The position numbers and the translations under genes are program-made. A DNA stretch of 21,738 bases from Linderina pennispora. Taxonomy: Eukaryota; Kickxellomycota; Kickxellomycetes; Kickxellales; Kickxellaceae. The stretch lies in NCBI RefSeq assembly GCF_002104995.1, contig NW_024468427.1, positions 1-21,738 of the forward strand. The letters run 5' to 3'. Of the stretch, positions 1,755 to 21,240 are shown piece after piece (the first letter of the stretch is position 1; the number at the start of each line of letters is the position of its first letter). A model generated the notes under the pieces. The model did not search any database and was not told the origin of the DNA. It saw only the letters and a list, made by a program, of their open reading frames with translations.

Positions 1755-2243
1755 AGCACTGTCCAGTTAACCGATGGAAGAACCAGCACTGCTCTCATTA
1801 CGCTTCATGCCGCACAACATGCAAAACAGCTACACACCCTGATGTCTGTGCTGTAGCTTTCCCTGCAGCAACTGCCTCACACTGGCTATCTGCATGGGAG
1901 GTTGCAAGGGAATGGACTGGCGAAGGCTGAAGAGGCGTCACATTTGCCAACTGTCCCCGTCCCGGTCAGTGGACACGCCGCCAACGCAGGTCCGCACTTA
2001 TTGGCAGCCGGCATTGTGTGGCCCTGCGTACCCTCCACTGCCTGCCCCCGGCCCGTGACGCCATGTGCTGTTCCGACCCTTCTACTCAGTGAGTGCCGAT
2101 TCCGAGAGCGCCTTTCTCCACGCGATCGTTGCCGACAGGGCGCTGGTTATGACTGCCGCTGTACTCTCCCGACTGGATTGATAACTAACCGGGCGCCTCT
2201 CGATCTCCAGACTCGCACCATGAAGTCGCTCTGCAGTGTGGGC

Positions 2244-2249
2244 TATAAG
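2244..2249 (+). promoter_or_regulatory. TATA box of the arm-A micro-gene
   Basis: TATAAG lies 73 nt upstream of the ATG at 2317 and is preserved in the inverted copy at 13357-13362. Its position matches the TATA-leader-ATG layout of other array members. Confidence 0.45.
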
Positions 2250-2316
2250 AAGACAACGCTCTGCCTAGGACCTGGCCCTGTACTCTCAGCAATTTGTTCC
2301 TTAGACCTTACACACC

Positions 2317-2511
2317 ATGAGCGAATACTGGACAGCCTTTCCGTGCGACTTCGCCGAGAGCGTCAATTTCATCTGCGGCAACTGCAATGCGGTGTTCAGC
2401 GAGATGCTGACACTGAACACGCACTGCGACCAGTGCTGTCCATGCGCGCCTGCTGCGATGCAGGAGACAAGCAGACGGACAGCACTGAAGCGCTTGCTGT
2501 GGTTTCCCTAG
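2317..2511 (+). CDS. Single-zinc-finger micro-protein (64 aa), arm A copy
   Basis: A 64-aa ORF beginning MSEYWTAFPCDF, with ATG in a good context (ACACCATGAG). Residues 18-39 hold one finger: Phe-Ile-Cys-x2-Cys, then NAVF, a Leu at the helix position, His after 12 residues and Cys three later (C-x2-C-x12-H-x3-C). A Cys-rich stretch (CCPC) follows, then a basic tail ending LLWFP. No signal peptide or membrane span. The only differences from the arm B copy are F12S and one silent change. It is the only member on the plus strand and lies outside the main array. Zinc binding is inferred from the motif; function is unknown. Confidence 0.65.
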   Translation: MSEYWTAFPCDFAESVNFICGNCNAVFSEMLTLNTHCDQCCPCAPAAMQETSRRTALKRLLWFP

Positions 2512-2801
2512 GCACCTGCCAATCAACACAAGCAAAGACAAGACGCCCCATTCAACTCTACCCACCCGCCTGAGGCGCAATGTGCAAGGGCTGAGCTGAT
2601 TGCCAGACCAAAGCCAGCATTGCCGCCTCTCGATCTGCACCAGGTCCTTGCATGCAGGCGTGCGTGAAGCGTCTATCGCAACAAAGGAACACATCTCGGG
2701 ATCTGTTCTGCAGATCAATTACCACATCACAGGTGTTTGTTTTCGCGCCTGTCCTGCTGGTCCCGTGAACCAAGATGCTGCATTGCATATGTTGCATGTA
2801 T

Positions 2802-3778: not shown

Positions 3779-5434
3779 TTACTTTTCGCGAGAGTTGCGC
3801 CCAGCCATATACACGTCCGATTCAGGGTCAAAGATCGAGTCCCTGATCAGGTCGGCTTCCTCGGGCCGCACCCACTTTGTCTTCTTGAAGTGCTTCCAGC
3901 CGCCATAGAGGATAACAATAACGGGAATGGACACATACGAGGACACAAACGAGCGCGCATCGAAGCCATCAGCGAAGGCAGTCCAGCCTTGGCCAAAAAT
4001 GATAATGATGATGGTGACCAGGCAAAAGGCCGGGCCAAACGGATAAAAAATAGCCGTGTACGGCAGATCCTTGACATCGAACCCCTGGCGCACATAGGCC
4101 CGGCGGAAGCGCAGGTGGGCGAAGGAAATGCCTGCCCAGGCGGCAAAGCCAGTGGACGCCAGACAGACTCAGGATCCACATATACACAACCTGGTCGCCG
4201 ATCAGCGACAGCAGGAAGATGATAGTGGCGACACCCAGCGACAGCGCCAAGCACCAGATCGGGATGCCGCGCTTGGTGACCTTGCGGAACACGGCGGGGC
4301 CTGGCCGTGCATGGCTAGATTCCATAGTGTACGGGTGGCGATGTAGATGCACGAGTTTCCGGCGCTTAGCACGGTAGTCAGAATAATTGCGTTCATGACG
4401 TCGGCTGCGGGCTTCAGACCGGCTTTCTGGAAGACAATGGAGAAGGGTGACTGGCCAATGTCTTTGGTGCTTGCCTTGACCAACGACTTGTCGCTATACG
4501 GGATAATTAGGCCGATGAGGAAGATGCATGAGACGTAGAACAGGAGGATGCGCCAGAACACCTGGTTCACCGCCTTGGGAACTGTCTTGACTGGGTCCTT
4601 GGCCTCGCCCGCAGTGATGCCGATGACCTCGGTTCCCTGGAAAGAGTACCCGGTTAGAATCAGCGTCGCCAGGACACCTGGCACGCCGTCATAGAACGGG
4701 GCGCCCTCGACATGCCAGTTCTCGAACCCGTAGGTGTGGCCGCCAAGCCCGCCCGCAGCGACCACAATGGCAATGATGATAAACACGATGACCGTGATGA
4801 CCTTGATCATGGCAAAGTAGAACTCGGCTTCGGCATACCCGCGCACGCTGAACAGGTTGAGCCCCAGCAGAATCAGGGCGGCTAGAATCGACCACAGCAC
4901 GCCGCTGATGTTTGGCAGGTAATACCGGCACACAATGCCTGAAGCCACCAGCTCTGATGCCGTCACGCACACGTAGTTGAACCAGTAGTTCCAGCCGAGC
5001 GCAAACCCAATCGCCTGGTCGCCGTATCGCGACGCATACTCGTTGAACGATCCGGCGATCGGTGTGAATGTCGCGACTTCGCCCAGCGAGGACATCAGGA
5101 AGAACACGATGATGCCCATCAGCAGATACGACACAAGTGCTCCGCCCGGCCCGGCCGATGCCAGCGACGTGCCGGCGGAAATAAACAGCCCGGTGCCGAT
5201 GGTCCCGCCCAGAGCAATCATCGTCATGTGGCGTTCCTTCAGCTGGCGCTTGAGCCCATGCACCTTGGTGCTGTGGGACTCGCCGTCGTTGTCACCCATT
5301 TGCGAAATCGACGGGCTGAGATCGGCCATCTCGATCGCGTCGGCATCCCCGTGCTCGGGCTTGGTGGTCGACTGTGCCGCTGTCTGCTTGTTGCGCCGCT
5401 TTGAGAATATCGCGCCAACTCCCTTGATGGCCAT
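3779..5434 (-). CDS. Basic amino-acid permease (APC/YAT family), two frameshifts
   Basis: Plasma-membrane amino-acid/proton symporter of the fungal YAT group, closest in feel to Can1/Lyp1/Alp1 lysine-arginine permeases. The ATG at 5434 starts a hydrophilic cytosolic N-terminus of about 65 aa, followed by LKRQLKERHMTMIALGGTIG, the family hallmark at span 1. GEVATFTPIAGSFNEYASRY, SFQGTEVIGITAGEA and NQVFWRILLFYVSC follow in family order, then VMNAIILTTVLSAGNS. The frame is lost at about 4298 (HGQAP, one base short in a C run) and again near 4157 (after LSLSG), resuming as STGFAAWAGISFAHLRFRRA. The last frame ends at 3779 with a charged tail. Corrected length is about 551 aa, normal for the family. 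Both breaks are single-base, so assembly error is as likely as decay. Confidence 0.85.
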
Positions 5435-5857: not shown

Positions 5858-7481
5858 CTACTCCCAGCCGTCGCTTCCGTTCTGGTCCGCAGAGGGCTCG
5901 GCACCCGCCGGAGGCAGGTCAGCGCGGCCGTTGGCGTCAGGCGAACGGGGCGACGCGTTGGCGTTGTCGCGCGGCGGCAGCGGCGACGGGGAGCGCGGAG
6001 CAGCAGCAGGCGGCGGCGGCAGATCGTTGGGCCCGTCCCGCATGACCGGGCTGCGCGACCGTGAGCGGGGCGATCCCGGCGAGTACCGGCGGGCCGGTGG
6101 CGGCGGCGAGCGCGACGACCGGTTGTTGTACGACGACCGGCGGTAGCGCGGAGAGCGGGAGCGCTCCCGCGAGTACGAACGCGAGCGCGACCGGCGCGAC
6201 GACCGGCGCGGCGAGTACGAGCGCTCACGTGGGTAGCGGCCGCCTCCACCTCCACCGTTGCCACCGCGAGGGCCAAAGTCCTAAAGAATCAAGAAATCAG
6301 GGGTTAGATTGGCGCGTGTCGGCGATAGTCGGGGTGTCTGCATCTGCTCGGTGCACTTACCTCACGCAGAACCACGCGGCGACCGCGGAGCTCCTCGCCG
6401 TCGAGCTTGCGCAGCGCCGTGCGCAGGCCCTCCTCGTCGACAAACTCGACGATGCCCTCGCCAGGGCGGAGCTTGTGGGCGTCGGCAAACGACACCTCGC
6501 CCGCGCGCCGGGCAAAGTCCTTGAGATCCTATATAGCGAGCGAGCCAAGCCAGGCGGTTGCAGAACGTATCCCCCATAGCGCGTTAGACCGTGTTCACCG
6601 CCACACCGATGAAATTTCCGTATGCCACGCCGTATCAGACGTCGCCATCCCCCACCACACAGCAATCCAGCCCGTGCAGAACCGCAACAATCGAGCAATA
6701 TCGTCAACTTTTATCCAGCGTGTGTAGACTGAAATCTCTGGCGCTCCAAAACAAACTGTGCCCGCGCCTTCACCAAATCACAACAGCAAGCGCGACGTGT
6801 TCCTCTCAGCCATCCTCCCCGCTGCGCCGTTGCTTTCGCTGCGTACGCGCCAACAGAAAAAGGACTGCCCAAACAACCACTCTCACGCACGCTGTCTCAA
6901 TGGAATACACAAGGAATAGAGGCAATCAGCACCAAAAAGAGCACTCCACCTGCCCCACCCTCGGCCACGCGCCAATAAGCCGCCATCAGCGCGTTAGCCA
7001 GGCGAGAGCAGAGGCGGAGTGGATGAAGCACGGGAGGAGCGAAGAGCACACTGTCTAGTGCTCTTCAACAGTCTTATCATGCAGCCAAATCCACAGAAAA
7101 CCAACCGACGAAACTTACCTGCCAGCTCACCGACGACGAAAGGTTCTCAACGAGCATGCGGAACGGCGTGCGCTGTGGCGCGCCCATGCTGCCCATGCGG
7201 CGTCCGCGGTCGTCTCCGCGGTCCTCACGCCGGAAGCCGCGGTCCATCCGCTCGCGGCGCCGGTCAACACGGGCCGGCTCGATCAGCAGGCGCTCACCCA
7301 TGAAGTCGCGGTTGTTGAAGTCGTGCATCACGTCCTCGGCATCGCGCCGGTCGCGGAACTCGACAAACCCGAACCCGGACAGCAGGCAAATGTCACGGAT
7401 CTCTCCGTATCCCTTGAACAGCTTCTCGATATCGCGCTCACGCACATCACGCGGCAGACGACCGACATACAGGCGGGACAT
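5858..7481 (-). CDS. SR-family splicing factor, two RRMs plus RS tail (317 aa)
   Basis: Nuclear pre-mRNA splicing regulator of the SRSF4/5/6, S. pombe Srp2 type. Exons are 7481-7119, 6528-6361 and 6280-5858, all joined in phase 0. RRM1 (aa 3-72) has RNP2 LYVGRL and RNP1 GFGFVEFR. An Arg/Gly/Asp linker follows. RRM2 carries the SR-protein hallmark SWQDLKD, built across the first splice junction (SWQ/DLKD), which confirms that junction. Exon 3 encodes a Gly run and then an RS/RSP domain (SRRSRSRSYSRERSRSP), ending in a Pro/Ala-rich tail DGWE. No frameshift is present. Predicted RNA binding through RRM1 and pseudo-RRM2, with Ser-Arg phosphorylation control, follows from the family. Confidence 0.93.
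6281..6360 (-). other. SR-gene intron 2 (80 nt)
   Basis: GTAAGT donor at 6360 and TTTAG acceptor at 6281. The size is typical for this window. Confidence 0.85.
6529..7118 (-). other. SR-gene intron 1 (590 nt, unusually long)
   Basis: GTAAGT donor at 7118 and ATATAG acceptor at 6529. At 590 nt it is about seven times the other introns seen here. SR genes often hold regulated introns or poison exons. I saw no clear internal GTAAG donor on the minus strand, so a poison exon is not directly supported. No coding sequence is recognised inside. Confidence 0.85.
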
Positions 7482-7751: not shown

Positions 7752-7889
7752 TCACAGGTGCACCCTGGTCGCGCAGTACAGCCAGTGGCCTTCGAATGAA
7801 GTCAGATCGTCAAACAGTTCATGGCACATCGGACACAGCACGGCGTTGTAGCAGCAGCGACATATAGGGGGACCGCTGGTGATAGCCAT
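7752..7889 (-). CDS. Single-zinc-finger micro-protein (45 aa)
   Basis: ATG at 7889 (AGCCATATG on the plus strand) opens a 45-aa ORF beginning MAITSGPPIC. The finger is Leu-Cys-Pro-Met-Cys, then HELF, a Phe at the helix core position, His after 12 residues and Cys three later (C-x2-C-x12-H-x3-C). Three extra Cys (positions 10, 12, 13) precede it. The same frame is open upstream to a TTG at 8048, but I prefer the ATG because other members also start close to the finger. A CTTAAAG near 8064-8070 may be the TATA element. Zinc binding is inferred; no family name is known to me. Confidence 0.6.
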   Translation of the reverse strand: MAITSGPPICRCCYNAVLCPMCHELFDDLTSFEGHWLYCATRVHL

Positions 7890-8501
7890 ATGTCCGTTTG
7901 GTTGGTTGCAGAGTCCAATTAGCAAGGCGGGCTGTGGAGGGCGAGCGAGCAGCACGCTTTTGGATGGTAAAATCGGGGATGGTATCAGCCGATGCCAGCT
8001 GGGGAATAGATGGGGAGCGGAGGAGAGATTGGTGTTCTTGCGCAGCACACCCGAACAAAGCCTCTTTAAGCTTCTCCAGATCTAATATGTCCCGCTCTCC
8101 TGGCCCGGCTTTCTTGCCCCGGCTCCAGAGCTACTGCTAAAGCCCCCTTGGTTCCCCACATTGCAGGTAGAGTTCTGTATATGTGAAATGTGGGCATCGT
8201 GCACCAAATCAGCAATCCCCTGGTGGTGGTGGTGGTAGTGGAGGTAGTGGCAGACACGTCACACATCCCCTCGTGCATTAATTGCCTGGAGTTTGATACT
8301 TGTTACAAAGTTGACAAAAGGTGTATCTACAAGAAATATCTGCATTGTTCTCCCGCGCAACACCTCCCTGCGCCCTTGCCCACGCTCTGTCTAAGCTCAA
8401 GAGAGGCGGCTATCCTCCCAGCAGATACCCGCCTCCTCTTATCTCGGCTTTCCGGCAGCGTGAACCGCCGCAAGGACAGACAGCGTCGGGATATCGCTGC
8501 T
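7890..8501. other. Spacer between array members 1 and 2
   Basis: Holds the upstream region of the 7889 gene and the 3' region of the 8648 gene. There is a GGT/GGA-rich simple stretch at about 8220-8250. A plus-strand Cys-rich frame near 8270-8350 has no in-frame ATG and is not called. Confidence 0.3.
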
Positions 8502-8648
8502 CTAAGCGTGTCCCAATGGCATCAGCCGGTGGTCGCCGCAATCAGCGAAATGCAGCGCCAAAGCGCACTCTTCATGGAACGTTTCATCGCACAGCGGACA
8601 GAAGAACCCGCACACGAGCGCCGACTTGTAACCAGTGATGCATACCAT
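8502..8648 (-). CDS. Single-zinc-finger micro-protein (48 aa)
   Basis: ATG at 8648 (ACCATGGTA in the coding sense) opens 48 aa beginning MVCITGYKSALVCG. The finger is Phe-Phe-Cys-Pro-Leu-Cys, then DETF, Leu at the helix core, His after 12 residues and Cys three later. Extra Cys at residues 3, 13 and 28. The tail GDHRLMPLGHA is short. There are no targeting signals. A TATATTT on the minus strand at about 8801-8808 could serve as core promoter. It is one of the most canonical fingers in the array. Confidence 0.65.
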   Translation of the reverse strand: MVCITGYKSALVCGFFCPLCDETFHEECALALHFADCGDHRLMPLGHA

Positions 8649-9292
8649 TGTGTGTCTGTGAGCGAAATCAGTCGTAATCCGAATCTTTTTAGGGTTTTCT
8701 GTGGGGAGGGAGCTTTTGAATGGTTTTAATGATGGAATAGGAACAAAAAATATTGGGCAGCTTAAATAAAGCGAGAGCAAAAGAGCGCGTTCCAAAAAAA
8801 AAATATACGGCTGCTGGGCACTGCAGGCAATATTGCAGCGATTCAACAAGATGAGGGGAGACTGAGGATGGATGCTGCTTCTCTGGCTGCTGCCGGGCTC
8901 GAGATTCCCTTGCACCTCCTACCGCCAGACCCCTGCCTGCCTTTCGTTCCGTAGGTGTTTCTTTGTGTGGGATTTTTCCCTCTTTGACGCCCTTTTCGCC
9001 TCACTATCATTGTGCTTCACTGAGGCGGAAAGGGATTGTTTAAGGTAAATCTCAGAGAAATGTGAACATCCGTCCTGCACTAGCCTAATAAATGGCCAAT
9101 ACTTGCTGGCAGCGATCTACCAACCCATTCTTTATCCCTGGTTCAGAGTTCCCAGGCACACGCCAGCGCAAGCATACCGCTATCTGTCTGCTTTATTAAA
9201 GGGATACAGGTCCGTGGCAGATGCCGGTATGCTCTGGACTCGCGTCCCTGGACGCCTGGACTTTTCCACCTATGCTTTGCATGTCTCTTATT
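8649..9292. other. Spacer between array members 2 and 3
   Basis: No gene recognised. On the minus strand an AATAAA near 9195-9201 lies about 95 nt past the stop of the 9439 gene and could be its polyadenylation signal. Confidence 0.3.
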
Positions 9293-9439
9293 CTACAATA
9301 CTACACTCTCAATATTGGTACTGGTATTTTTCGCATGCTCATCGGTTTGGGTGTGAGCATTAAGCTCTTCTAGCGTCGTGTATGCCTTTGTCTGGTCGCA
9401 TGCGAAACAAAAGATTCTCTGTTCGCCCTTGCCACTCAT
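9293..9439 (-). CDS. Single-zinc-finger micro-protein (48 aa), x14 variant
   Basis: ATG at 9439 opens 48 aa beginning MSGKGEQRIF. The finger is Phe-Cys-Phe-Ala-Cys, DQTKAY, a Leu in the helix, His after 14 residues and a second His five later (C-x2-C-x14-H-x5-H). The two extra residues lie between the second Cys and the aromatic core residue; from that residue to the His the spacing is canonical. The tail is polar (AKNTSTNIESVVL). A minus-strand ATATAC about 30 nt upstream is too close to be a sure TATA box. Confidence 0.6.
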   Translation of the reverse strand: MSGKGEQRIFCFACDQTKAYTTLEELNAHTQTDEHAKNTSTNIESVVL

Positions 9440-10027
9440 ACTGACGGTAGGAGGGTGCTGGTACGTATATCAAGCGGAATAAAGCCAAAGGTATGTGTAG
9501 TAGAATGCAGTATGGAAAAGACTGCAGAGTATCGTTTGCCTGTTGGAGAGTCATTAAGATAAAGCGAAAAAGGGGGATACAGCCGATTGGTGTATACATA
9601 CATATGAGGGGGCTGGGCGCAGGCCAAGCGACACACACCAAGCGATACACACCAAGTGACTTGCGCTCGCCAAGTGACTTGCACTCGCCAAGCCAGGTGG
9701 GCACCAATTACACAAGAAAACATAATGCCTCGTGCCAGAAATAGACTTCAACTCTTATTTCTCAAATAATGTGTTCTGTTAGACACGAAAAAAATGATGA
9801 TGAGCACATTGCATGAGCCACGCGCCCGTCTCCCAAGACTTTCATGTCGATACGCTGATACTTCATTGGCGCCCTCCTCTCGGCAGGTAACGTCTGTGGC
9901 TGTTGTCATCAAAGCACAGAGTGATCCTGGCACTCGTATGAGGCACGATAGTCACTGTGCTGCTGACAGTGCTTGAAGAGTCTTTAGACATAGATTGACC
10001 TGGGTAACATTGCATAAAAGTCAAATA
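9440..10027. other. Spacer with short tandem repeat
   Basis: Contains the CCAAG-type tandem repeat at 9623-9698. A minus-strand 42-aa ORF starting MSKDSSSTVSS (just below 10000) has an ATG but no finger, and is not called. Confidence 0.3.
9623..9698 (+). repeat. CCAAG(C/T)GA tandem repeat
   Basis: Five imperfect units start with CCAAG: two short CCAAGCGAyACACA units, two longer CCAAGTGACTTGCrCTCG units and a partial CCAAGCCAGG. It lies upstream, in the minus sense, of the 9439 micro-gene. Confidence 0.7.
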
Positions 10028-10126
10028 TTAGTTTGAATATTCAGCTTCTGACACTGTAGACCCGGGCATGTGTGAACACTGGCTGCATATAGCCAGACTC
10101 TGCCGGCATACAATACCCTTTTCCAT
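10028..10126 (-). pseudogene. Possible decayed zinc-finger micro-gene (32 aa)
   Basis: ATG at 10126 opens 32 aa beginning MEKGIVCRQ with Ile-Cys-Ser-Gln-Cys followed, after exactly 12 residues, by Tyr (TAT) where the array members have His (CAT or CAC), then Ser-Asn-stop. A single C-to-T change would explain the loss of the His. The core aromatic is also missing. It has the position, strand and size of an array member but fails the motif, so it may be a relic or chance. Confidence 0.3.
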
Positions 10127-10371
10127 GGCGTAGTCTTCGGCTTCATACTTTCATAAAGACAATGGATAAAACAATAGCGCTTTTAATAAAATAGGTAACT
10201 GGGAAAGGGGTATAGTGCTTCAAGCAAGCAGCACAGATGGGCAGAGTAGGTGAAAAACAGTTTATGCAAAAAATGCAGGATGTTTTGAGGCAAGAGGATG
10301 GCTTCTGGGATGCCTTTCTTCTAGCCGATGGGTGAGATGGGCGCGGTGCGAGTTTCGGCTCACAAGCCAAG

Positions 10372-10521
10372 TCAGGAGTGACTCGATTCCACGTGCACGT
10401 TGTACGATTCAAACTCATGGTATATCGCTCCACAGTAGAAGCAGACAAACGCCTGTTGGCGAGTAAGCGATTTACACAGCCTCAATTGAGACAGGTTCTT
10501 GAATGCTACGTTACAGGTCAT
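10372..10521 (-). CDS. Single-zinc-finger micro-protein (49 aa)
   Basis: ATG at 10521 opens 49 aa beginning MTCNVAFKNLSQLRL. The finger is Phe-Val-Cys-Phe-Tyr-Cys, GAIY, an aromatic Tyr in the helix core, His after 12 residues and a second His five positions on (C-x2-C-x12-H-x4-H). The protein ends directly after the finger (His-Ser-stop). A TATATA at 10565-10570 lies 44 nt upstream. It is a classical C2H2 form, whereas most neighbours are C2HC. Confidence 0.65.
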   Translation of the reverse strand: MTCNVAFKNLSQLRLCKSLTRQQAFVCFYCGAIYHEFESYNVHVESSHS

Positions 10522-11112
10522 CGCAAGAGGGCGTATGTGGTTGGTATATTAAGAAGGAATATAGTATATAAATGATCCAGTATGGCCAGCGAGGTCAAGG
10601 AAAGAGAAGCAAAAATGGCGGCAGTGGGAGGGAGTGGTAATCGAACAGTAGAGAATGGTAACCGCAATGCAACCCGTACAGCGATGACCAGGTGGCAGAA
10701 AAAGAACGAGTGAGGCGGCGAGCGACGGCAAACAAGCGGCATGCTGGCTTATATTTTTTCTTCAAGAATATTGCCCGTCGGGGCAGTAACAGAATAACCT
10801 CGACCGCTTGGCTTGGTGGGTGTATGTGGCTTGCCTTCGTGCCCAGGTCCCTTGTTTGCTCCAACGTGGGTAGTGCATGACGCCCAGTGAAATTGTGCAT
10901 GATTTTTGTTGGCATCCTTCGCCTCATTTTCAATTGTCACCTTGATTGTTTCTGAAAGAGAGCGACATGGTAGAACCACGTCTATTCCATTTCGATTCGG
11001 TATTGTTGGCTGAAGTGTCTACGAATATAAGGCAGAAAGGAAGACGTGACGGACAGCAGGTCCTGCCTATGCCTATTCTCGCACGAGTGCCTTCCTTTTT
11101 TGCCGTCCTGCC
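10522..11112. other. Spacer, nothing certain
   Basis: A minus-strand frame at 10549-10731 shows C-x2-C-x14-H-x4-C spacing but lacks the aromatic core residue and starts with a non-finger hydrophobic segment. I do not call it. No other motif is recognised. Confidence 0.3.
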
Positions 11113-11476
11113 CTATGATCTGCCCAACAAGTACAGGAGTAGAAATAAGGCCTGCGAGTTATCGTGCCGGTGGCACCAATTGAACAAAGCGCCTTCCGCA
11201 GTCTTCTGATCCTCCACTTTAGGTGGAAAGTCCATGTCTGTAGGGAATGATGCAATTGACTGCCAAGCACACAAACAGGGAATATCAGGTAATGGTGTCG
11301 TCAGAAAAACGCGCCTCAGCTTTGCACTTGCAGCATTGCGCAGGCCACCTGACAAGGGGGCAGGAGGATCCGCTTCTCCCAGCAGCACAGATCGCGGTGC
11401 ATACATACTATACAGCGCAGCGAAATACATGTTGTACGAGCCTATCTTCGTCGTGGAATTCCGCCCGACAATAATA

Positions 11477-11605
11477 TCAATTGTATACCCGGTGATCTGC
11501 ACGCTTGACGGGGCAACGGTGACGCCAGCGCCAGCGCCAGCACCAGCACCAGCACCAGCACCAGCACCAGTGAACGTAGCTGAAAATCCTCTGTAGAAAC
11601 CCCAT
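11477..11605 (-). CDS. Candidate Cys-Trp/Arg-Trp repeat micro-ORF (42 aa)
   Basis: The first ATG (11605) downstream of a perfect TATAAAA box (11704-11710) opens 42 aa: MGFLQRIFSYVH, then five Trp-Cys pairs and Trp-Arg pairs encoded by the hexanucleotide repeat, then HRCPVKRADHRVYN. The TATA-to-ATG distance (98 nt), strand and size match the zinc-finger micro-genes, and the site falls in the array between members at 10521 and 12048. It may be an array member whose finger was overwritten by repeat growth, or the true product may use the Gly-Ala frame. No homologue is known to me. Confidence 0.3.
   Translation of the reverse strand: MGFLQRIFSYVHWCWCWCWCWCWRWRWRHRCPVKRADHRVYN
11524..11570 (+). 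repeat. Hexanucleotide microsatellite (CCAGCR)n
   Basis: About eight units of CCAGCG or CCAGCA. All three minus frames stay open through it (Val-Leu/Ala-Leu, Gly-Ala and Cys-Trp/Arg-Trp), as does a plus frame encoding Ala-Pro. Such tracts are prone to length change. Confidence 0.9.
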
Positions 11606-11943
11606 TTGAAAACGGTGGTTTGTGATTGTGTGAGCTAATGGAAGGATGCAGCTTGGGAGTATCCCAGGACGTCCGAAGAGAGATCCTATCCACGATTGTT
11701 CGCTTTTATACCTTCACTCTGATTGGCATGGGTTAAAATCCTCCATATCTTGGCAACACCACCCACAGCGTAGTGGTAGCTTTGCGATTCTTGATTCCTT
11801 AGGTCCCCATCACGAATCATATAGAAGACAACAGCTATCATTGATGAGTTGGTATTATGTGCGAAAGCATAATAAGAATTTACATAAATGTCTTGCCACT
11901 TGGTGGGAGGAAGTTATTGTAGTGCCATTCACCCGCTTTGGCC
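11606..11943. other. Spacer with TATAAAA promoter at 11704-11710 (minus)
   Basis: The minus-strand TATAAAA at 11704-11710 is the clearest promoter element in this stretch and drives toward 11605. No other gene is recognised. Confidence 0.4.
11704..11710 (-). promoter_or_regulatory. TATAAAA box of the 11605 locus
   Basis: A perfect TATAAAA, 98 nt upstream of the first ATG (11605), in the same layout as the finger micro-genes. Confidence 0.5.
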
Positions 11944-12048
11944 CTACTTGCAAAAATAAGCACGGTGCACCTCGAGGAAGTCGGGGTAGGCGAAAGTGTC
12001 GCCGCAGATCGTGCATTCGTACCCAGAGCTTTGCGCAGTCGATTTCAT
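11944..12048 (-). CDS. Single-zinc-finger micro-protein (34 aa), smallest member
   Basis: ATG at 12048 opens only 34 aa beginning MKSTAQSSG. The rest is one finger: Tyr-Glu-Cys-Thr-Ile-Cys, GDTF, Leu in the helix core, His after 12 residues and Cys five positions on (C-x2-C-x12-H-x4-C), then Lys-stop. The protein is thus a bare finger with a nine-residue lead. A TATAAAG box at 12173-12179 lies 125 nt upstream. The same frame upstream has no ATG before the leader becomes very Phe/Ser-rich, so the short form is preferred. Confidence 0.62.
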   Translation of the reverse strand: MKSTAQSSGYECTICGDTFAYPDFLEVHRAYFCK

Positions 12049-12446
12049 TAGAACGATAGGCGCGAAAAGATAATTTATGTACTCGGTGAGTGGCGAAAGG
12101 TAAGAAAAAACTGGCAAAAACCTGAAGGAAAAAGAGAAAAATCGGAAGGACACCAATCGATAGGGCGGCATCCTTTATAACCCCTGGACGGGCAAACGTT
12201 CCTAACACTCGCTGATACACAATTGCCGGAAAAAGCGATACCACACTATAATTAGTCTGGCTTATTTTCTGCCCGCAACTCCTTTTTTTAGGGACCCAAC
12301 TGGCGGCCAGCCGCCTGAAACTCTTCCGGCTTTTCTAGCTTGTGGTCGAGTCTATTTTTGGGCCGGCAGTGCAAGCGCACAGAGGATCCACAGAATGGCA
12401 CTGGCAAATTGACCGAATGGGAAGAGGCCGGAACAGCCCTGGTACG
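12049..12446. other. Spacer with TATAAAG box at 12173-12179 (minus)
   Basis: The TATAAAG box serves the 12048 gene. A CTTTTTTTAG-type T-rich stretch near 12280-12290 is present. No other gene is seen. Confidence 0.35.
12173..12179 (-). promoter_or_regulatory. TATAAAG box of the 12048 micro-gene
   Basis: TATAAAG 125 nt upstream of the ATG. The same heptamer precedes the 14526 gene. Confidence 0.5.
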
Positions 12447-12596
12447 CTACTTATGCCCCTGCGTTGGCCTAAAGACGGGCTGGTGTTTGCACGAGGGTAC
12501 GTGTCCGTTGAGCAAGTCAAGAGACACAAAACCAACATTGCATCCAAAGCACACAAACGGCTCGTAAACAAAGTAAGGGGAACTAGTGGGGTGCAT
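12447..12596 (-). CDS. Single-zinc-finger micro-protein (49 aa)
   Basis: ATG at 12596 (ACCATGCAC) opens 49 aa beginning MHPTSSPYFVYEP. The finger is Phe-Val-Cys-Phe-Gly-Cys, NVGF, Leu in the helix core, His after 12 residues and Cys four positions on (C-x2-C-x12-H-x3-C), then a basic, His-containing tail KHQPVFRPTQGHK. A TATATA box at 12703-12708 lies 107 nt upstream, and the leader between is strongly pyrimidine-rich on the coding strand. It is a canonical finger and a confident member. Confidence 0.66.
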   Translation of the reverse strand: MHPTSSPYFVYEPFVCFGCNVGFVSLDLLNGHVPSCKHQPVFRPTQGHK

Positions 12597-12805
12597 GGTT
12601 GAGTATTATTGGTGCAAATAAGCGCAGTGAGGAGAGGAAATATACATTGAGATGGAGGAAAGGGAGGAAGGGGAGGAAGAAGAAGAGAGAGGAGGAAACT
12701 GGTATATAATCCTTCCAAAGTCCTCAAGGCATAGAGGTAACGAGAATGGGGGTGGAGATGGCTGAGGTGAAGCTTTTTTAATATGTCCTTTTTGGGCAAC
12801 CCCGC
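12597..12805. promoter_or_regulatory. TATA box and pyrimidine-rich leader of the 12596 gene
   Basis: TATATA at 12703-12708 (minus) is followed by a long C/T-rich tract on the coding strand (12650-12700) before the ATG at 12596. Pyrimidine tracts near fungal transcription starts are common. Confidence 0.4.
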
Positions 12806-13094
12806 ATACATGCAACATATGCAATGCAGCATCTTGGTTCACGGGACCAGCAGGACAGGCGTGAAAACAAACACCTGTGATGTGGTAATTGATCTGCAGA
12901 ACAGATCCTGAGATGTGTTCCTTTGTTGCGATAGACGCTTCACGCACGCCTGCATGCAAGGACCTGGTGCAGATCGAGAGGCAGCAGTGCTGGTCTGGTC
13001 TGGCAATCAGCTCAGCCCTTGCACATTGCGCCTCAGGCGGGTGGGTAGAGTTGAATGGGGCGTCTTGTCTTTGCTTGTGTTGATTGGCAGGTGC

Positions 13095-13289
13095 CTAGGG
13101 AAACCACAGCAAGCGCTTCAGTGCTGTCCGTCTGCTTGTCTCCTGCATCGCAGCAGGCGCGCATGGACAACACTGGTCGCAGTGCGTGTTCAGTGTCAGC
13201 ATCTCGCTGAACACCGCATTGCAGTTGCCGCAGATGAAATTGACGCTCTCGGCGGAGTCGCACGGAAAGGCTGTCCAGTATTCGCTCAT
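13095..13289 (-). CDS. Single-zinc-finger micro-protein (64 aa), arm B copy
   Basis: Identical to the arm A protein except Ser at residue 12 in place of Phe. The finger is Phe-Ile-Cys-x2-Cys-x12-His-x3-Cys with NAVF and a helix-core Leu, followed by a Cys-rich and then basic tail. A TATAAG box at 13357-13362 lies 68-74 nt upstream. Only one replacement and one silent change separate the two copies, both outside the metal ligands. Confidence 0.65.
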   Translation of the reverse strand: MSEYWTAFPCDSAESVNFICGNCNAVFSEMLTLNTHCDQCCPCAPAAMQETSRRTALKRLLWFP

Positions 13290-13356
13290 GGTGTGTAAGG
13301 TCTAAGGAACAAATTGCTGAGAGTACAGGGCCAGGTCCTAGGCAGAGCGTTGTCTT

Positions 13357-13362
13357 CTTATA
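13357..13362 (-). promoter_or_regulatory. TATAAG box of the arm-B micro-gene
   Basis: The inverted copy of the arm A element, about 70 nt upstream of the ATG at 13289. Confidence 0.45.
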
Positions 13363-13893
13363 GCCCACACTGCAGAGCAACTTCATGGTGCGAGTCGGGA
13401 GATCGAGAGGCGCCCGGTTAGTTATCAATCCAGTCGGGAGAGTACAGCGGCAGTCATAACCAGCGCCCTGTCGGCAACGATCGCGTGGAGAAAGGCGCTC
13501 TCGGAATCGGCACTCACTGAGTAGAAGGGTCGGAGCAGCACATGGCGTCACGGGCCGGGGGCAGGCAGTGGAGGGTACGCAGGGCCACACAATGCCGGCT
13601 GCCAATAAGTGCGGACCTGCGTTGGCGGCGTGTCCACTGACCGGGACAGGGACAGTTGGCAAATGTGACGCCTCTTCAGCCTTCGCCAGTCCATTCCCTT
13701 GCAACCTCCCATGCAGATAGCCGGTGTGAGGCAGTTGCTGCAGGGAAAGCTACAGCACAGACATCAGGGTGTGTAGCTGTTTTGCATGTTGTGCGGCATG
13801 AAGCGTAATGAGAGCAGTACTGGTTCTTCCATCGGTTAACTGGATAGTACAGTCATTAAGCGCAAGCCTTGTCTTAGCCCACGGATATCCCAA

Positions 13894-14049
13894 TTAGCAT
13901 TGAAAGCTAGTGCCAACTATCATCTTAGGACAACGTTGGCAAATCAATAGTGTTTTGTGTATACTCTGAACTCCACGTAATGAACATATCACCTTGTAAA
14001 ACCTTTCAATATCTACTGATGTCCCTTGTGCTGGAAGATAGTGTAATCC
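13894..14049 (-). mobile_element. hAT transposase C-terminal relic
   Basis: A 51-aa minus-strand frame begins GLHYLPAQGTSVDIERFYKV, close in pattern to the hAT C-terminal dimerisation segment (YLPIxxSSVxxERxFS), and continues ICSLRGVQSIHKTLLICQRC. The Glu-Arg pair and the preceding Thr-Ser-Val are kept. Upstream coding (14060-14300) is interrupted by stops. The call is from family memory and weak in length. The surrounding DNA is AT-rich, unlike the array. Confidence 0.4.
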
Positions 14050-14331
14050 TATTTTCTAGATTAATGTCATAACTGCATCATCACTATCATAGAATTGATA
14101 ATATAGAGATGCAACTGAAGGTTGTTGTGGTTGGGTTGAGATATCTATATTATTCTTTGAATGTGTTGAGTGGAATGGTGACTAATAGAATAAGGAACAG
14201 CAGGATGTATATTGTCTGCCAAGTCTCAAATTATGTAGTGCTACTACAGCTACTCTCCAGATATAGAATGACAGTGTAGATCATAGAAAAGCTTCATAGT
14301 CTACTATCTAATTTTTATTTTATCAAGAAAT
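14050..14331. other. AT-rich stretch, possible further transposon remains
   Basis: Short broken frames on the minus strand continue into the hAT-like relic. No feature can be bounded. Confidence 0.25.
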
Positions 14332-14526
14332 TCAGAATTTGCAGTGGAATTTAAGAGTGCATGTCTCCTTTGGCTTATTCGCACCGTGATAGGCTGCATC
14401 GATGCATGCCGCATGTCTCTTCTTATCATGATGTGCGATAATATGCGCTATGCCATCAGTCACGGAATAGAATCTCCGCGAGCAGTAGCGGCAGCTGTAT
14501 ATGTTGACTTCGCTGCATTGAGTCAT
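14332..14526 (-). CDS. Single-zinc-finger micro-protein (64 aa)
   Basis: ATG at 14526 opens 64 aa beginning MTQCSEVNI. The finger is Tyr-Ser-Cys-Arg-Tyr-Cys, SRRF, His after 12 residues and a second His four positions on (C-x2-C-x12-H-x3-H), with one further His. The helix-core position is Gly-Ile in place of the usual Leu. The tail of about 30 aa is Lys/Ala/Cys-containing (HAACIDAAYHGANKPKE). A TATAAAG box at 14624-14630 lies 98 nt upstream. The sequence is embedded in AT-rich DNA. Confidence 0.62.
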   Translation of the reverse strand: MTQCSEVNIYSCRYCSRRFYSVTDGIAHIIAHHDKKRHAACIDAAYHGANKPKETCTLKFHCKF

Positions 14527-15990
14527 GTTTGTAGTGTAGAATGATATGTAGAATGTGTTTGAAAAGGACGGAGCAAATTGTATTGCGTATGGTATTGGAA
14601 GAGTAAACTGGTCGGATCATCCTCTTTATAGAGAACCCACACAAATTACATTACCCCTAAAATGATTCCATGACAACTGAACTGTGATCCTGTTCGGAGA
14701 TATATGATCTAATGTGTGCATGACATGTTATTCCTACTTCATGTTTTCCAAATTAAAACTACTCATGGGTAGCGAGTATCTTTTTGCTGCAAGGAGATGC
14801 AGACAAGTCGTGAGTGGTAGTGGATAAGTTGTTGTCTGTTGGCTTAATTGATAGCTGCAGCATCAATTCAGCATTCACCAAAAATGTTTGTATATAATGT
14901 GCTCATGTAGAGGCATAATCGGAAATATTTAACATCTGGAACGAAATTAACAGATAGAGTCAATACCTATAACATGGCTGCTCATAATCAGAATTGACTA
15001 AGTTTTACAAATGGTTTCGTGATACTCAGATATACTATCTTCGTTTCATTATGCAGGCCTATTCAGCGACACATCTTGAAAACAAATGCATGCCCCCGTT
15101 GTTGTAGGTCTAGAGCACACGGCAGGTGATATAGGGCAAAAGGAGGAAACAGATAACGAGTAACGAAAAATACCTGATATGTGAATGTGTGTATTTTTCG
15201 TGTACCGTGGATTCTAAATATCCTGTCAAGCGATAATATGTCAATCCAGAGATGTGCAAGCAGTGTGAACGTATCGGCAACAGAAAATGACAGAGCCAAG
15301 TAGTATATATTGATAGAGAAAGAGAGCTATAGAGAAAAGGAAGGTAGAGGCGAGCGCAAAGGTTTTTTACCATCGCTCAGGTGACAGAGCCAGAAATAAA
15401 AGAAAAAACAGTGGGATGAAAAACTATGTGGTTCACAGTAATCGGATCTTGAGATTCTACCAAAACCAACGTAAAGAGAAGTTGCATATACTGCAAGACT
15501 GCCGGGCAGGCTACGAGAAGAAGAACACTGCCGCCTTTCAGAAAACCGCTGCCACCGAAAAGTGAGCACGTGTGATGGGTAGAGGTGCTACATGCATCCA
15601 TAGGAGGAGGTTGCCAGCGACACGCCAATCAAAGGCGAGGTCACTGGGAATTCATTCATGAGCCTCTGGCCGAATTTGCAATGTGTGAGGGCTCATCCTG
15701 CTTTCTTCAAAGACATCATTATCCTGCCAGTCCACCTATTCCCCGCCATAGCAAAAAAATTGGCTTATGCTGATGCATAGCCGCATATTCCTCAATAAAA
15801 ATCCACACCAAGCAGGAAGGCAGACGGCAGAGATATACCACGTACGCAGCTTTCGACATTGGAACAGTTCTTTATTATACGGCATCAAGTATTGACAGGT
15901 GATTATGAGCCAGATCCAGGACCTTTATGGTGCTCTGCCCTTGGCTTCAGATCCTTTTGTTACGGGTGCGCACCTACCCGGCATGGCTGA
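14527..15990. other. Long spacer, nothing recognised beyond the TATAAAG box
   Basis: Holds the TATAAAG (14624-14630) of the 14526 gene. 14640-15060 is AT-rich. Frames of 60-90 aa exist on both strands at 15063-15773 but show no motif; the minus ones are Phe/Leu/Ser-rich from polypyrimidine sequence. No array member was found here despite a directed look for C-x2-C-x12-H. Confidence 0.35.
14624..14630 (-). promoter_or_regulatory. TATAAAG box of the 14526 micro-gene
   Basis: TATAAAG 98 nt upstream of the ATG. It stands out as G-flanked within AT-rich DNA (CTCTATAAAGAGG). Confidence 0.5.
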
Positions 15991-16053
15991 CTAGTGGCCA
16001 CCAAATCGGCAATGGATGCAGTCGTCGACACCGTTACCGCTCGTAGGATCCAT
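15991..16053 (-). pseudogene. Possible truncated finger micro-ORF (20 aa)
   Basis: ATG at 16053, 146 nt below a TATATA at 16200-16205, opens 20 aa beginning MDPTSGNG and holding Asp-Cys-Ile-His-Cys-Arg-Phe, with a stop soon after. The first half of a finger seems present but the His pair and helix are missing. Adjacent frames do not restore a good C-x2-C-x12-H with a single-base change. It is either a relic or chance. Confidence 0.22.
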
Positions 16054-16699
16054 GATGTGTTGTTGCTCAGTCCTGTGTTTATTTCGTCTCCTTCAGAATG
16101 GTGCGATCAGCAACAAAAAAGACACTCCTTGTAAATGCTGGTGCAAGAGAGAAAAGGAGAAATACGTGCCAGGTGTTTCCCCCTTTCACAGTTCCCAGCT
16201 ATATAACTACTACATTAGCAAGACTGAGAGCAGCGGTCGCAAGGGGTGCAATAAAAAGGGGCATGTCAAGCGTCATTTCCGAAACTTTCTTGGCAGGGTG
16301 AAGGAAGATCGACAACGTCCTTTCCTTTTTTGTACAACACATGGAGCGCTATGTATCCACCACTCATGTTTTAGTGAGTTGCTGATGATCCTTGTATCAA
16401 GATATTCTTGCACGCGTTTTGGGGAGAAGCGCAAGCGACATGTGGTTTGGTTCAATATACCTGATTTTCGCTGCGTCCACATACGCAGAAGGTTGGGTGG
16501 CATCACTGTAAACAAAATAGAGCGTTTTTGGTTGACCAGAGCCAATCAGACCCGCACTTGATCGCTCGAGAACATAGCGTGAGGCGTGGTTCATGTGAAA
16601 AGTGGGGTTGTTAGAGAACCGGACCCACGTTCTTGTTAGTGATTTACATGTTTTCTCGTTTGTCTAGCGATGGATGACTAGAACTGTGCCCATCAGGCC
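16054..16699. other. Unassigned region; one long plus-strand ORF
   Basis: A plus-strand ORF 16016-16561 (181 aa, ATG start) is Cys/Lys/Arg-rich (KDTPCKCWCKREKEK; RKGCNKKGHVKRHFRNF) with no motif I recognise. It runs antisense to the 16053 micro-ORF and its promoter. Its length makes it worth noting, but coding status is unproven. Confidence 0.22.
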
Positions 16700-16882
16700 T
16701 TAAAAATAAATCCGCACGATGATTCTGCCTATTCTTAAGCTCGAGACGCCAACATACCCCTTGTCTCTGCAGTACTCACAGCACTGAGGAAAGTCCCCTT
16801 TCGTACATTTTGTCTGAAGTCGGCCAAAAGCCGGCTCAATCACGAATGCCCAGTGGAGTATGTAGGTGTTCATGCTTCGCAT
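16700..16882 (-). CDS. Cys-rich micro-ORF (60 aa), doubtful array member
   Basis: ATG at 16882 opens 60 aa beginning MRSMNTYILHWAFVIEPAF. It has Cys-x6-7-Cys-Cys-x2-Cys (KCTKGDFPQCCEYC) and then RDKGYVGVSSL, which mimics the C-x2-C-x4-aromatic start of an array finger, but no His follows at x12-14. Strand, size and spacing fit the array. It may be a decayed finger or a different four-Cys site. Confidence 0.33.
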   Translation of the reverse strand: MRSMNTYILHWAFVIEPAFGRLQTKCTKGDFPQCCEYCRDKGYVGVSSLRIGRIIVRIYF

Positions 16883-17125
16883 GTCCGCAACACCCACCAC
16901 AGGTTGTCCCACCGCTGCAGCTTATTTGTTGTATTCGGATGTGGGTGTACACTTGGGAGCGTGCTGTCGGCCTTGGCTGATTTCCGAATATGCCGGTCAC
17001 ACGGGTATCATGAACACAATCAGGTTTATGGCTTCAAAAAATGGCCCAAGGAGGGTTTTATTTTTATTCCCAAAGCGGCATGCAGTATGGTGAAAAGTAG
17101 CATCAATGGGGTGATGCCCGAGGGA
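16883..17125. other. Spacer
   Basis: No supported gene. A plus frame crosses it (16853-17293) but shows no motif. Confidence 0.25.
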
Positions 17126-17263
17126 CTAGCGGATGTAGCTGGCAGCACTATCCTTGAGAAGGGTGCACCTGAATATATGGCTGCCGGGGTTCTCTGTCAT
17201 AGACGAGATTTCTCCGCAGTTGAAGCAGCGCTCCTGGGTAGGTTGGGAGAAATCAGAGTACAT
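17126..17263 (-). CDS. Single-zinc-finger micro-protein (45 aa), divergent finger
   Basis: ATG at 17263 opens 45 aa beginning MYSDFSQPTQER. The finger is Arg-Cys-Phe-Asn-Cys, 12 residues, His, three residues, Cys (C-x2-C-x12-H-x3-C). The ligands and spacing match the array exactly, but the usual core Phe and helix Leu are replaced (GEISSMTENPGS), so the fold may be weaker. A tail of about 12 aa follows. A 15-base A run (plus sense) lies in the leader at about 17317-17331; no clear TATA box is seen. Confidence 0.5.
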   Translation of the reverse strand: MYSDFSQPTQERCFNCGEISSMTENPGSHIFRCTLLKDSAASYIR

Positions 17264-18603
17264 TGTATGATGGTGTTTGGTGGTGCGAATTGAGGCCAGT
17301 AGGGTAGAGTTTGCAAAAAAAAAAAAAAAGAAAAGCGGCTGGCATCTAGTCACATAGCGTCCAGACTTGACTTGCCAGCACAAGGAATAGGCGTGAATTT
17401 TGAGTCAGTTTTCCTGGCATCCCTATCTGTGTTCCCTCGCAAGCTACGCAGAGCTCTGGCCAATACCGCAATGAGGAGAAATGCGAGTGATGGCGGCGTA
17501 TCCTAGGTCTATTTATCCTCTTTTCAACCTGTCCCTCAGATAACAACGTGATACACGGAAGTGAGGTATAAAACTTGTTTTGCACAGATCTGTCTAAAAT
17601 TATCCGCCACAAGGTGGACATCTTCCCACCACTCCAAAGAGACGCAAAACCTTGCACTTTGCATACCTGCTGCAGCACTGTGCTTCCGAGGCGCATATGC
17701 TAGGTGTGCAGATAAGATGTCACGTTGGTATTGACACCAAAGAATATACATGGTAGGGTGAGGGTAAGAAAGGGGAGCAGGCGGATAGCATACGGTTGGG
17801 TAAACCCGTTTTTTGTTAGTGAGGTGTGACCAGCACCTCACCTTTCCCATCTTCAGGCAAATCCTTGTGTCCATGCTTACCTTATGATTGGGCTTCACAC
17901 TTGCTTATCTCTCCCTCACTAGGTGATTTGCCCGGGGCTCGGCTGTTGCGAATTCATATGGTGCAGTGAGGGGACAGGGCTGCTGACGGGAATGAGGGGG
18001 ATGTTGACAACTGAGGATCATGCTGTGGCCGCTGGGTCGTCGTTCTGCACTGGGGTACACCGCATGCACAGCCTTGCCCTTCTGGCGACGCCAGCACCAC
18101 GCACACGGCCCACATGGCCGCTTTTGGACGAAGAAGGATCCACATGTGTTGTTTCCCAGCACTCAACCCAACTTTCTCAGTCCTCTTCTTTTCGCTTGAC
18201 CCATCTGATGAGTGGAGATCATAGGGCTTACCACGTTGCATTGGACGACAATGGCCAGTACACGTTTGTTGTTCCCCGAGGACAAGGCGAGGAAGCGAAG
18301 CGAGTTCCGAGTTTGATATTCTGGCAATAGTGCAAAAAAGTGTCTCGCTTGCTTGAAATTGAGCCATTTTATTTAAACTATGAGCTGTAGAAACGAGGGA
18401 GGGAGTAGTTGACTATTTTGAGCACATCCGGTGAATGAGGGATGTGTGGAGATAAATATGGCCGTATAGCTAATAGTGGGGAAATGCAGCTAGCATATAC
18501 ATAGCAGAGAAAGGTCGAGTAGTAGTTTGATTTATATACCGTGTCAAATCTGACAAACATGGGAGGGCGAGGCGACATAAGGCCCCGGCACGATGATCTC
18601 TGG
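17264..18603. other. Spacer with unassigned short frames
   Basis: A minus frame near 18080-18130 reads PCGPCAWCWRRQKGKAVH, giving C-x2-C-x12-H by spacing, but it has no in-frame ATG and no second His/Cys at the right place. On the plus strand, an ATG near 18208 opens MSGDHRAYHVALDDNGQYTF and stops at 18330; composition is protein-like, motif none. An older frame is open from 17923. None is called. Confidence 0.25.
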
Positions 18604-18746
18604 TCAGAACCGGCGGGGAGGGAAGCACCCTTGAGGTGCTCATACAGCTGCATCACGGTGCTAAACTCGCTCTGGCAGTGGACACAGAAGATGCGCTCGT
18701 TGCTCTGGTGGAGGCAGCAGGGCGAGGTGGTCAGTGATTTGGCCAT
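18604..18746 (-). pseudogene. Single-zinc-finger micro-protein, one-base frameshift
   Basis: ATG at 18746 (ACCATGGCC) opens MAKSLTTSPCCLHQSNER and the finger start Ile-Phe-Cys-Val-His-Cys, QSEF, Leu in the helix core and His after 12 residues, then Leu-Lys-Gly. As assembled, the frame then runs on for another 80 aa to 18378 without the last ligand. One base missing in the GGG run at about 18627-18629 would place Cys exactly at H-x3-C and end the protein a few residues later at 18604, the usual size. A TATAAAA box at 18877-18883 lies 131 nt upstream. I favour an assembly indel over real loss. Confidence 0.55.
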
Positions 18747-19949: not shown

Positions 19950-21240
19950 ATGGACTCTCTTGCACAGGCTGCGGCGGCGACTGCCGAGGATTTCAGCGAT
20001 TTGGATGCCGAAATCAGGCGTTCAAGCACAGACGAGATTCGCAGCCGCACGCGACTCATTGACAACGAAATCCGTGTGCTGAAGAGCCGGACTACAGCCG
20101 GCTGACACACGAGCAGCACAACATGACCATCAAAATCAAGGATAACACGGAGAAAATCAACATCAACAAGCAGCGCCGTACTTGGTGGCAAATGTGGTTG
20201 AGGTTCTGGACATCCACCCAGACGGCGACGAGGAGGAGGATGGGGCCAACGTGGACCTGGATGCGCAGCGCCGGGGCAAGTGTGCGGTGATCAAGGCCAC
20301 GACGCGGCAGACGGTGTTTCTGCCGGTGATTGGGCTGGTGCCGGTCTGAGGAGCTGACGGCTGGAGATCTGATCGGTGTGCACAAGGACAGCTTCCTGAT
20401 TCTGGAAAAGCTGCCGGCAGAGTATGACTCGCGCGTCAAGGTGATGGAGGTGGACGAGAAGCCGACGGAGGACTACAGCGATATCGGTGGGCTGGACAAG
20501 CAGGTGGAGGAGCTGGTAGAGGCGATTGTGCTGCCAATGACCCATGCAGACCGGTTCAAGAAGTCGGTATCAAGCCGCCCAAGGGCGTGCTTATGTACGG
20601 GCCGCCAGGCACCGGCAAGACGCTTTTGGCACGTGCGTGCGCGGCGCAGACGCAGTCGACATACCTGAAGCTGGCAGGTCCGCAGCTGGTGCAGATGTTT
20701 ATTGGTGATGGTGCGAAGATGGTGCGTGATGCATTTGCCCTGGCCAAGGAGAAGGCTCCGACCATCATTTTCATTGACGAGCTGGATGCGATCGGCACGA
20801 AGCGGTTTGACAGCGAGAAGAGCGGTGACCGCGAGGTCCAGCGCACGATGCTGGAGCTTCTGAACCAGCTCGACGGGTTCGGCAGCGACGACCGTATCAA
20901 GGTTATTGCAGCGACCAACCGCATTGATATCTTGGACCCGGCGCTGCTGCGTTCAGGCCGTCTCGACCGCAAGATCGAATTCCCGCTGCCCAACGAGGAT
21001 GCGCGTGCACGCATCATCCAGATCCACTCGCGCAAGATGAACGTGTCGAGTGACGTCAACTTTGACGAGCTGGCGCGGTCGTGCGACGAGTTCAACGGTG
21101 CTCAGTGCAAGGCCATTTGCGTGGAGGCTGGCATGATCGCGCTGAGGCGTGGAGGCACCAAGCTGTCGCACGAGGACTTCATGGAGGGAATCCAGGAGGT
21201 CCAGGCCAAGAAGAAGACCTCGTTGCAGTACTTTGCTTAA
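19950..21240 (+). CDS. RPT5: 26S proteasome regulatory ATPase Rpt5, four frameshifts
   Basis: AAA+ subunit of the 19S base, which unfolds ubiquitinated substrates and gates the 20S core. It starts [10 protein letters not shown]. The coiled coil and OB region follow in pieces, then the Rpt5-like [20 protein letters not shown] and [20 protein letters not shown]. Walker A GPPGTGKT (about 20600), Walker [32 protein letters not shown] and [16 protein letters not shown] are intact. Frame changes occur at about 20088 (KSR/DYSRL), 20182 ([10 protein letters not shown]), 20352 (extra base before EELTAGDL) and 20563 ([11 protein letters not shown]). Corrected length is about 430 aa, normal for Rpt5. 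The last three residues are Tyr-Phe-Ala, where Rpt5 usually ends Tyr-Tyr-Ala or Phe-Tyr-Ala. An essential gene broken four times suggests sequence error. Confidence 0.93.

Follow-up and report, generated by a model that had tools for sequence, protein, structure and literature searches.

A minus-strand array of one-zinc-finger microprotein genes in Linderina pennispora, conserved between haplotypes and proposed as small protein-binding adaptors

The stretch of DNA analysed here, called the window, is the whole of contig C89 (21,738 bp) of the Linderina pennispora assembly (26.17 Mb in 222 contigs), and its main feature is an array of very short genes, each for a protein with a single C2H2- or C2HC-type zinc finger. 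The minus strand holds nine intact one-finger open reading frames (ORFs) between 7752 and 17263, in keeping with the initial annotation, which had listed at least nine such ORFs of 34–64 amino acids on that strand. Two further loci, at ~11.5 and 18.4–18.7 kb, carry a frame that is altered in the window (Table 1). The units are spaced by ~0.5–2.8 kb rather than by the 0.4–2 kb first given. Nor are all copies on one strand, as had been stated: a copy of micro-gene 8 lies on the plus strand at 2317–2511, and one more plus-strand finger ORF was found in the other haplotype, just past the left end of the window (contig C201, 588.8 kb).

The number of finger ORFs was compared with that in shuffled sequence. 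A strict motif, C-x2-C-x12-H-x3-5-[HC], was sought in ATG-initiated ORFs of at most 140 amino acids between 7.5 and 18.9 kb, with 1000 dinucleotide shuffles as the null. On the minus strand, 8 ORFs were observed against a shuffle mean of 0.026 (maximum 1), and a looser finger motif gave 9 against a mean of 0.14 (maximum 2). No finger-motif ORF of this kind lay on the plus strand of the interval. The initial judgement that so many fingers are unlikely by chance was thus borne out.

The alignment of the window to C201 (589.0–612.4 kb) comprises 18.6 kb with 96.8% identity and 2.8 kb with 97.8%, and on its strength the two stretches are read as the two haplotypes of one strain, diploid or heterokaryotic. 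On C201, all 11 loci are short intact finger ORFs, among them both loci with a broken or shifted frame in the window. Codon changes between the haplotypes were counted in nine genes; micro-genes 5 and 11 were excluded from the genes and from the remaining array alike, and the differing stop of micro-gene 9 was excluded as well. The nine genes showed 14 silent and 4 replacement changes, where the mutation spectrum of the alignment (kappa 7.4) would predict 30% silent (p = 3.8e-5, omega 0.12). Their 1362 bp were free of indels, whereas the 9702 bp of the remaining array had 25, and substitutions stood at 1.3% against 3.2% (Fisher p = 3.9e-5). Silent divergence was no lower in these genes than elsewhere in the array, since dS was 0.050 by a simple count (dN 0.004 by the same count). 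The control consisted of 41 non-finger ORFs of 34–75 amino acids from the same stretch, of which 27 were scored after the removal of 14 that had an indel; these 27 gave 40 silent and 90 replacement changes, an omega of 0.99. In micro-gene 11, the first 40 codons showed 1 silent and no replacement change. Given the omega of 0.12, the lack of indels and the control value of 0.99, the ORFs of the array therefore code for protein under purifying selection, and the one-finger micro-protein genes of the initial annotation prove to have alleles constrained at the protein level.

Table 1. One-finger micro-genes and repeat arms of the window, with further members of the family elsewhere in the genome (window coordinates unless a contig is named; aa, amino acids)
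Feature	Position	Strand	Description	Between haplotypes
Micro-gene 1	7752..7889	-	45 aa, C2HC finger (H-x3-C)	0 substitutions
Micro-gene 2	8502..8648	-	48 aa, C2HC finger	1 silent
Micro-gene 3	9293..9439	-	48 aa, C-x2-C-x14-H-x5-H	2 silent, 1 replacement
Micro-gene 4	10372..10521	-	49 aa, C2H2; TATA at -49 from ATG	2 silent
Micro-gene 5 locus	~11410..11606 (bounds approximate)	-	Window allele broken upstream of finger; CCAGCA hexamer array at 11525-11570	C201 allele an intact 57-aa C2HC finger ORF; hexamer array differs in length
Micro-gene 6	11944..12048	-	34 aa (internal ATG) or 75 aa (first ATG), C2HC (H-x4-C)	2 silent, 1 replacement
Micro-gene 7	12447..12596	-	49 aa, C2HC; TATA at -112; beta-beta-alpha model (predicted)	1 replacement
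Micro-gene 8	13095..13289	-	64 aa, finger; in right arm of inverted repeat	2 silent
Micro-gene 8, second copy	2317..2511	+	Near-identical; in left arm of inverted repeat	
Micro-gene 9	14332..14526	-	64 aa, C2H2; TATA at -104	3 silent, 1 replacement besides stop; C201 allele without the window's stop, 4 aa longer
Micro-gene 10	17126..17263	-	45 aa, C2HC without usual aromatic core residue	2 silent
Micro-gene 11	18378..18746	-	122 aa in window; frame leaves just before last zinc ligand	C201 allele 47 aa, finger complete
Inverted repeat, left arm	1758..2801		1.04 kb	Present in both
Inverted repeat, right arm	12806..13848		1.04 kb	Present in both
Further one-finger micro-ORFs	C201: 331.5, 332.4, 341.8, 387.5, 388.7, 390.0, 391.3, 422.3, 422.6, 429.0 kb			
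Further one-finger micro-ORF	C179 near 1145 kb, identical copy near 1162 kb		35 aa	

Apart from the 1.04-kb inverted repeat that carries the two copies of micro-gene 8, no recent duplication was seen in the window. The arms of the repeat differ by 14 and 23 substitutions when both are taken from one haplotype, alleles of the same arm by 31 and 30, and the cross pairs by 24 and 37. Each arm is thus closer to its partner on its own haplotype than to its allele, which suggests gene conversion between the arms. The haplotypes also differ by an indel polymorphism, in which ~2 kb of C201 at ~591.8–593.8 kb (L039:3781-5790) stands where the window has ~0.33 kb (2813–3144). Two other frames were noted on the minus strand within the array. 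At 9635–9712, a finger-like frame without an ATG lies beside 14- and 18-base tandem repeats and is possibly a decayed member; at 12335–12832, an ORF upstream of and overlapping micro-gene 7 has a loose CxxC...H motif and is 165 amino acids long, as opposed to 80 in the other haplotype. Among the neighbours in the window, 4202–5434 resembles by eye an amino-acid permease, 7077–7481 an RRM protein and 20593–21240 a 26S proteasome ATPase.

The family extends well beyond the window. At least 24 one-finger genes were read in the Linderina genome: the 11 of the array, the copy at 2317–2511, the one left of the window and 11 elsewhere on C201 and C179. This reading covered 67 kb of C201 and other loci, mostly on C201, and took in 15 of the 37 short-frame finger rows of the genome scan. 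The local amplification first proposed is consequently not the whole account, as members also lie at 331–342, 387–391, 422 and 429 kb of C201 and on C179. In an alignment of 22 members (A5), the proteins are 33–64 amino acids long as aligned (median 47.5), and 19 of the 22 are shorter than 70 amino acids when started at the first ATG of the frame. The exceptions are the gene at 11944 of the window, with 75 amino acids, and L042:7433 and L044:4905, which lie within 133-amino-acid ORFs. Starts are uncertain for the members at 332.4 and 422.6 kb of C201, which were cut from 133-amino-acid ORFs, and for that at 429.0 kb, which sits in an open frame of 251 amino acids. Paralogues are 17–36% identical to the first sequence of the alignment. 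The fast divergence claimed in the initial annotation thus applies between paralogues; between alleles it does not, the proteins being conserved.

Outside the array, three genes could be compared between C201 and C12; their alleles showed no change in 387 bp, and their 3-kb loci differ by 2.2–3.3%. The C179 pair, inverted and ~17 kb apart (~1145.4 kb, L059; 1162.5 kb, L060), is identical over 108 bp, and its loci differ by ~9.5%. A tail of the form HF[FY]P marks eight aligned members (A4) that end soon after the last His, the residue that opens the tail, and the ORF at 429.0 kb brings the number to nine. A profile comparison of the window set with the tail set aligned 26 columns (E 3e-6, probability 88); as the shared columns are the finger itself, the match could reflect a common fold. 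When three window proteins were used as genome queries, the only matches were their own two alleles, from which the paralogues are taken to be very diverged. Beyond the window's own protein, profile searches of 5.8 billion proteins had just one match, the annotated Linderina protein DL89DRAFT_268123 on C201, which belongs to a cluster other than the window array; the prefix of its locus tag recurs in a paper on L. pennispora (PMC10478498). Four queries found no larger multi-domain relative in the genome, a search of low sensitivity for proteins so short. At ~325.9–330.6 kb of C201 (L042:920-5632), three adjoining long ORFs with similar signal-peptide-like starts lie beside two micro-finger genes; by eye they look like a tandem family of secreted proteins.

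All 22 fingers of the alignment follow C-x2-C-x12-H-x3-5-[HC], one of them with x14 in place of x12. An aromatic residue follows the second Cys in 18 of the 22, in one of these at a shifted position, and Cys is the first candidate for the last ligand in 11 by reading (10 in an automated tally). The finger core, described initially as present in nearly all copies of the array, is indeed so, with two exceptions: 17126–17263 has no aromatic after the second Cys, and 9293–9439 combines the x14 spacing with a shifted core. With nine window members supplied as an alignment, AlphaFold2 gave a beta hairpin followed by a helix at residues 26–35, with predicted local distance difference test (pLDDT) means over successive tens of residues of 84, 91 and 80 (residues 11–40); for the annotated member (P0002), modelled from its sequence alone, confidence was low (48). 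A classical beta-beta-alpha C2H2/C2HC fold is thus predicted, and the profile of the 22-member alignment (A5) matched classical C2H2 proteins in PDB. None of 10 window proteins reached the curated Pfam cut-off, the best score to PF00096 being 18.4 against the 25.2 bits required. In a structural comparison, a zinc finger known from work on TBK1 (5aaz) ranked fourth, tied with ordinary fingers, and a ubiquitin-type role would accordingly be a lead only.

The fingers of the microproteins differ in charge from those of the multi-finger ORFs of the same genome, with a mean of -1.3 (n = 22) against +2.7 (n = 39; p = 3e-9); charge was zero or below in 20 of the 22 microprotein fingers and in 3 of the 39 others. 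Judged from sequence, this charge favours partner proteins over a role in transcription or RNA. From the low charge, the lack of a second finger and the frequent Cys as candidate last ligand, we consider it somewhat probable that the ~11 separate genes for one-zinc-finger microproteins (34–64 amino acids) act as small protein-binding adaptors or competitors and not as transcription factors that bind DNA. Each gene would then be its own transcription unit, and each microprotein would fold around one zinc ion and bind a partner protein through the face of the finger, in one subfamily also through the C-terminal HF[FY]P tail; together the gene set would supply small adaptors or competitors.

The main rival, which we regard as rather unlikely, is that the single fingers act on nucleic acid, binding DNA or structured RNA as monomers or dimers and so regulating transcription or RNA. 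The predicted classical fold and the profile are both consistent with nucleic-acid binding, as is a weak match to zf-C2H2_jaz, a double-stranded RNA-binding type, in 4 of the 22 members. The acidic or neutral character of 20 of the 22 fingers and the absence of a second finger argue against it, and a lone finger reads just 3–4 bp according to PMC11241148. A zinc store or redox buffer, made of many cheap one-zinc proteins without a specific partner, appears improbable: replacement changes are rare outside the zinc ligands too, and storage would have no need of the HF[FY]P tail present in nine members, even if paralogues have little in common beyond ligands and core.

Alternatively, the sequences might be upstream ORFs, or they might be the exons of a large multi-finger gene or of a few such genes. 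They do share strand and order, and at C1:2759 kb the genome contains a multi-finger gene spread over different reading frames, yet each ORF has its own ATG and stop, and the longest listed ATG ORF in 7752–18746 has 181 amino acids and lies on the opposite strand. Of 21 family genes, 14 have a TATA[AT] match between -170 and -20 relative to the ATG, where 300 shuffles gave a mean of 4.6 and at most 11, and 17 have a purine at -3; two of the 21 (window 11944 and L042:7433) were measured from an internal ATG. The splice donor GT[AG]NGT was absent from all 12 ORFs tested. We infer that each micro-gene is probably transcribed separately, and we hold the exon explanation to be very improbable.

Two observations speak against an array of constrained, functional genes: the plus-strand copy of micro-gene 8 shows 1 silent and 2 replacement changes between haplotypes, and 2 of the 11 loci have a broken or shifted frame in the haplotype of the window. 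The second of these would suit chance ORFs or dead gene remnants, an explanation to which the excess of motifs over shuffled sequence (8 against 0.026) and the omega of 0.12 against 0.99 in the controls leave a negligible probability.

According to a 2024 paper (PMC11241148), which contrasts them with the haloarchaeal micro-proteins, eukaryotic zinc finger proteins are as a rule fairly large and carry several to many fingers. A close parallel comes from Haloferax volcanii, in which 12 of 16 deletion mutants of one-domain zinc finger micro-proteins of fewer than 70 amino acids had a phenotype under some condition (PMC6562870). The two sets are alike in that a single genome holds many independent genes for single-domain zinc proteins below 70 amino acids, with very few similar proteins known; the haloarchaeal micro-proteins, however, have two C(P)XCG motifs, whereas those of Linderina have one CxxC with a His and a His or Cys, as in the classical eukaryotic finger. 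With the classical C2H2 proteins (PF00096, PF13894, PF13912) the Linderina proteins share ligand spacing, hydrophobic core and the modelled beta-beta-alpha fold, but they are short, have one finger, are mostly not positively charged and fall under the Pfam curated cut-offs. Multi-finger DNA-binding C2H2 transcription factors differ from them in finger number and, as seen above, in charge. SUPERMAN-type plant proteins have a longer architecture, which is absent from the Linderina microproteins. Both have a single finger (1njq for the SUPERMAN type), but the QALGGH helix motif occurs in none of the 22 Linderina fingers. The plant and animal MicroProteins (PMC6003976) are likewise small and single-domain and could interfere with complexes. 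A literature search aimed at such families found no report of a fungal one-finger microprotein family.

We rate C2H2 fingers as stand-alone microproteins in arrays as a new form of a known finger type. It is possible, if doubtful, that this lineage of early-diverging fungi has dozens of one-finger C2H2/C2HC microprotein genes in arrays, a large class that annotation has almost entirely missed, and that they serve combinatorially as adaptors for, or inhibitors of, other proteins. Such a class would be the eukaryotic equivalent of the haloarchaeal micro-proteins, with no known parallel in other eukaryotes. Genes of 35–60 codons are easily overlooked by annotation. Two assembled haplotypes in one genome amount to a built-in coding test, which was clear here, and haplotype pairs can thus reveal families of overlooked microproteins. 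The Linderina genes offer a eukaryotic system in which to study the function of a lone C2H2 finger; experiments on this question have begun in archaea (PMC6562870).

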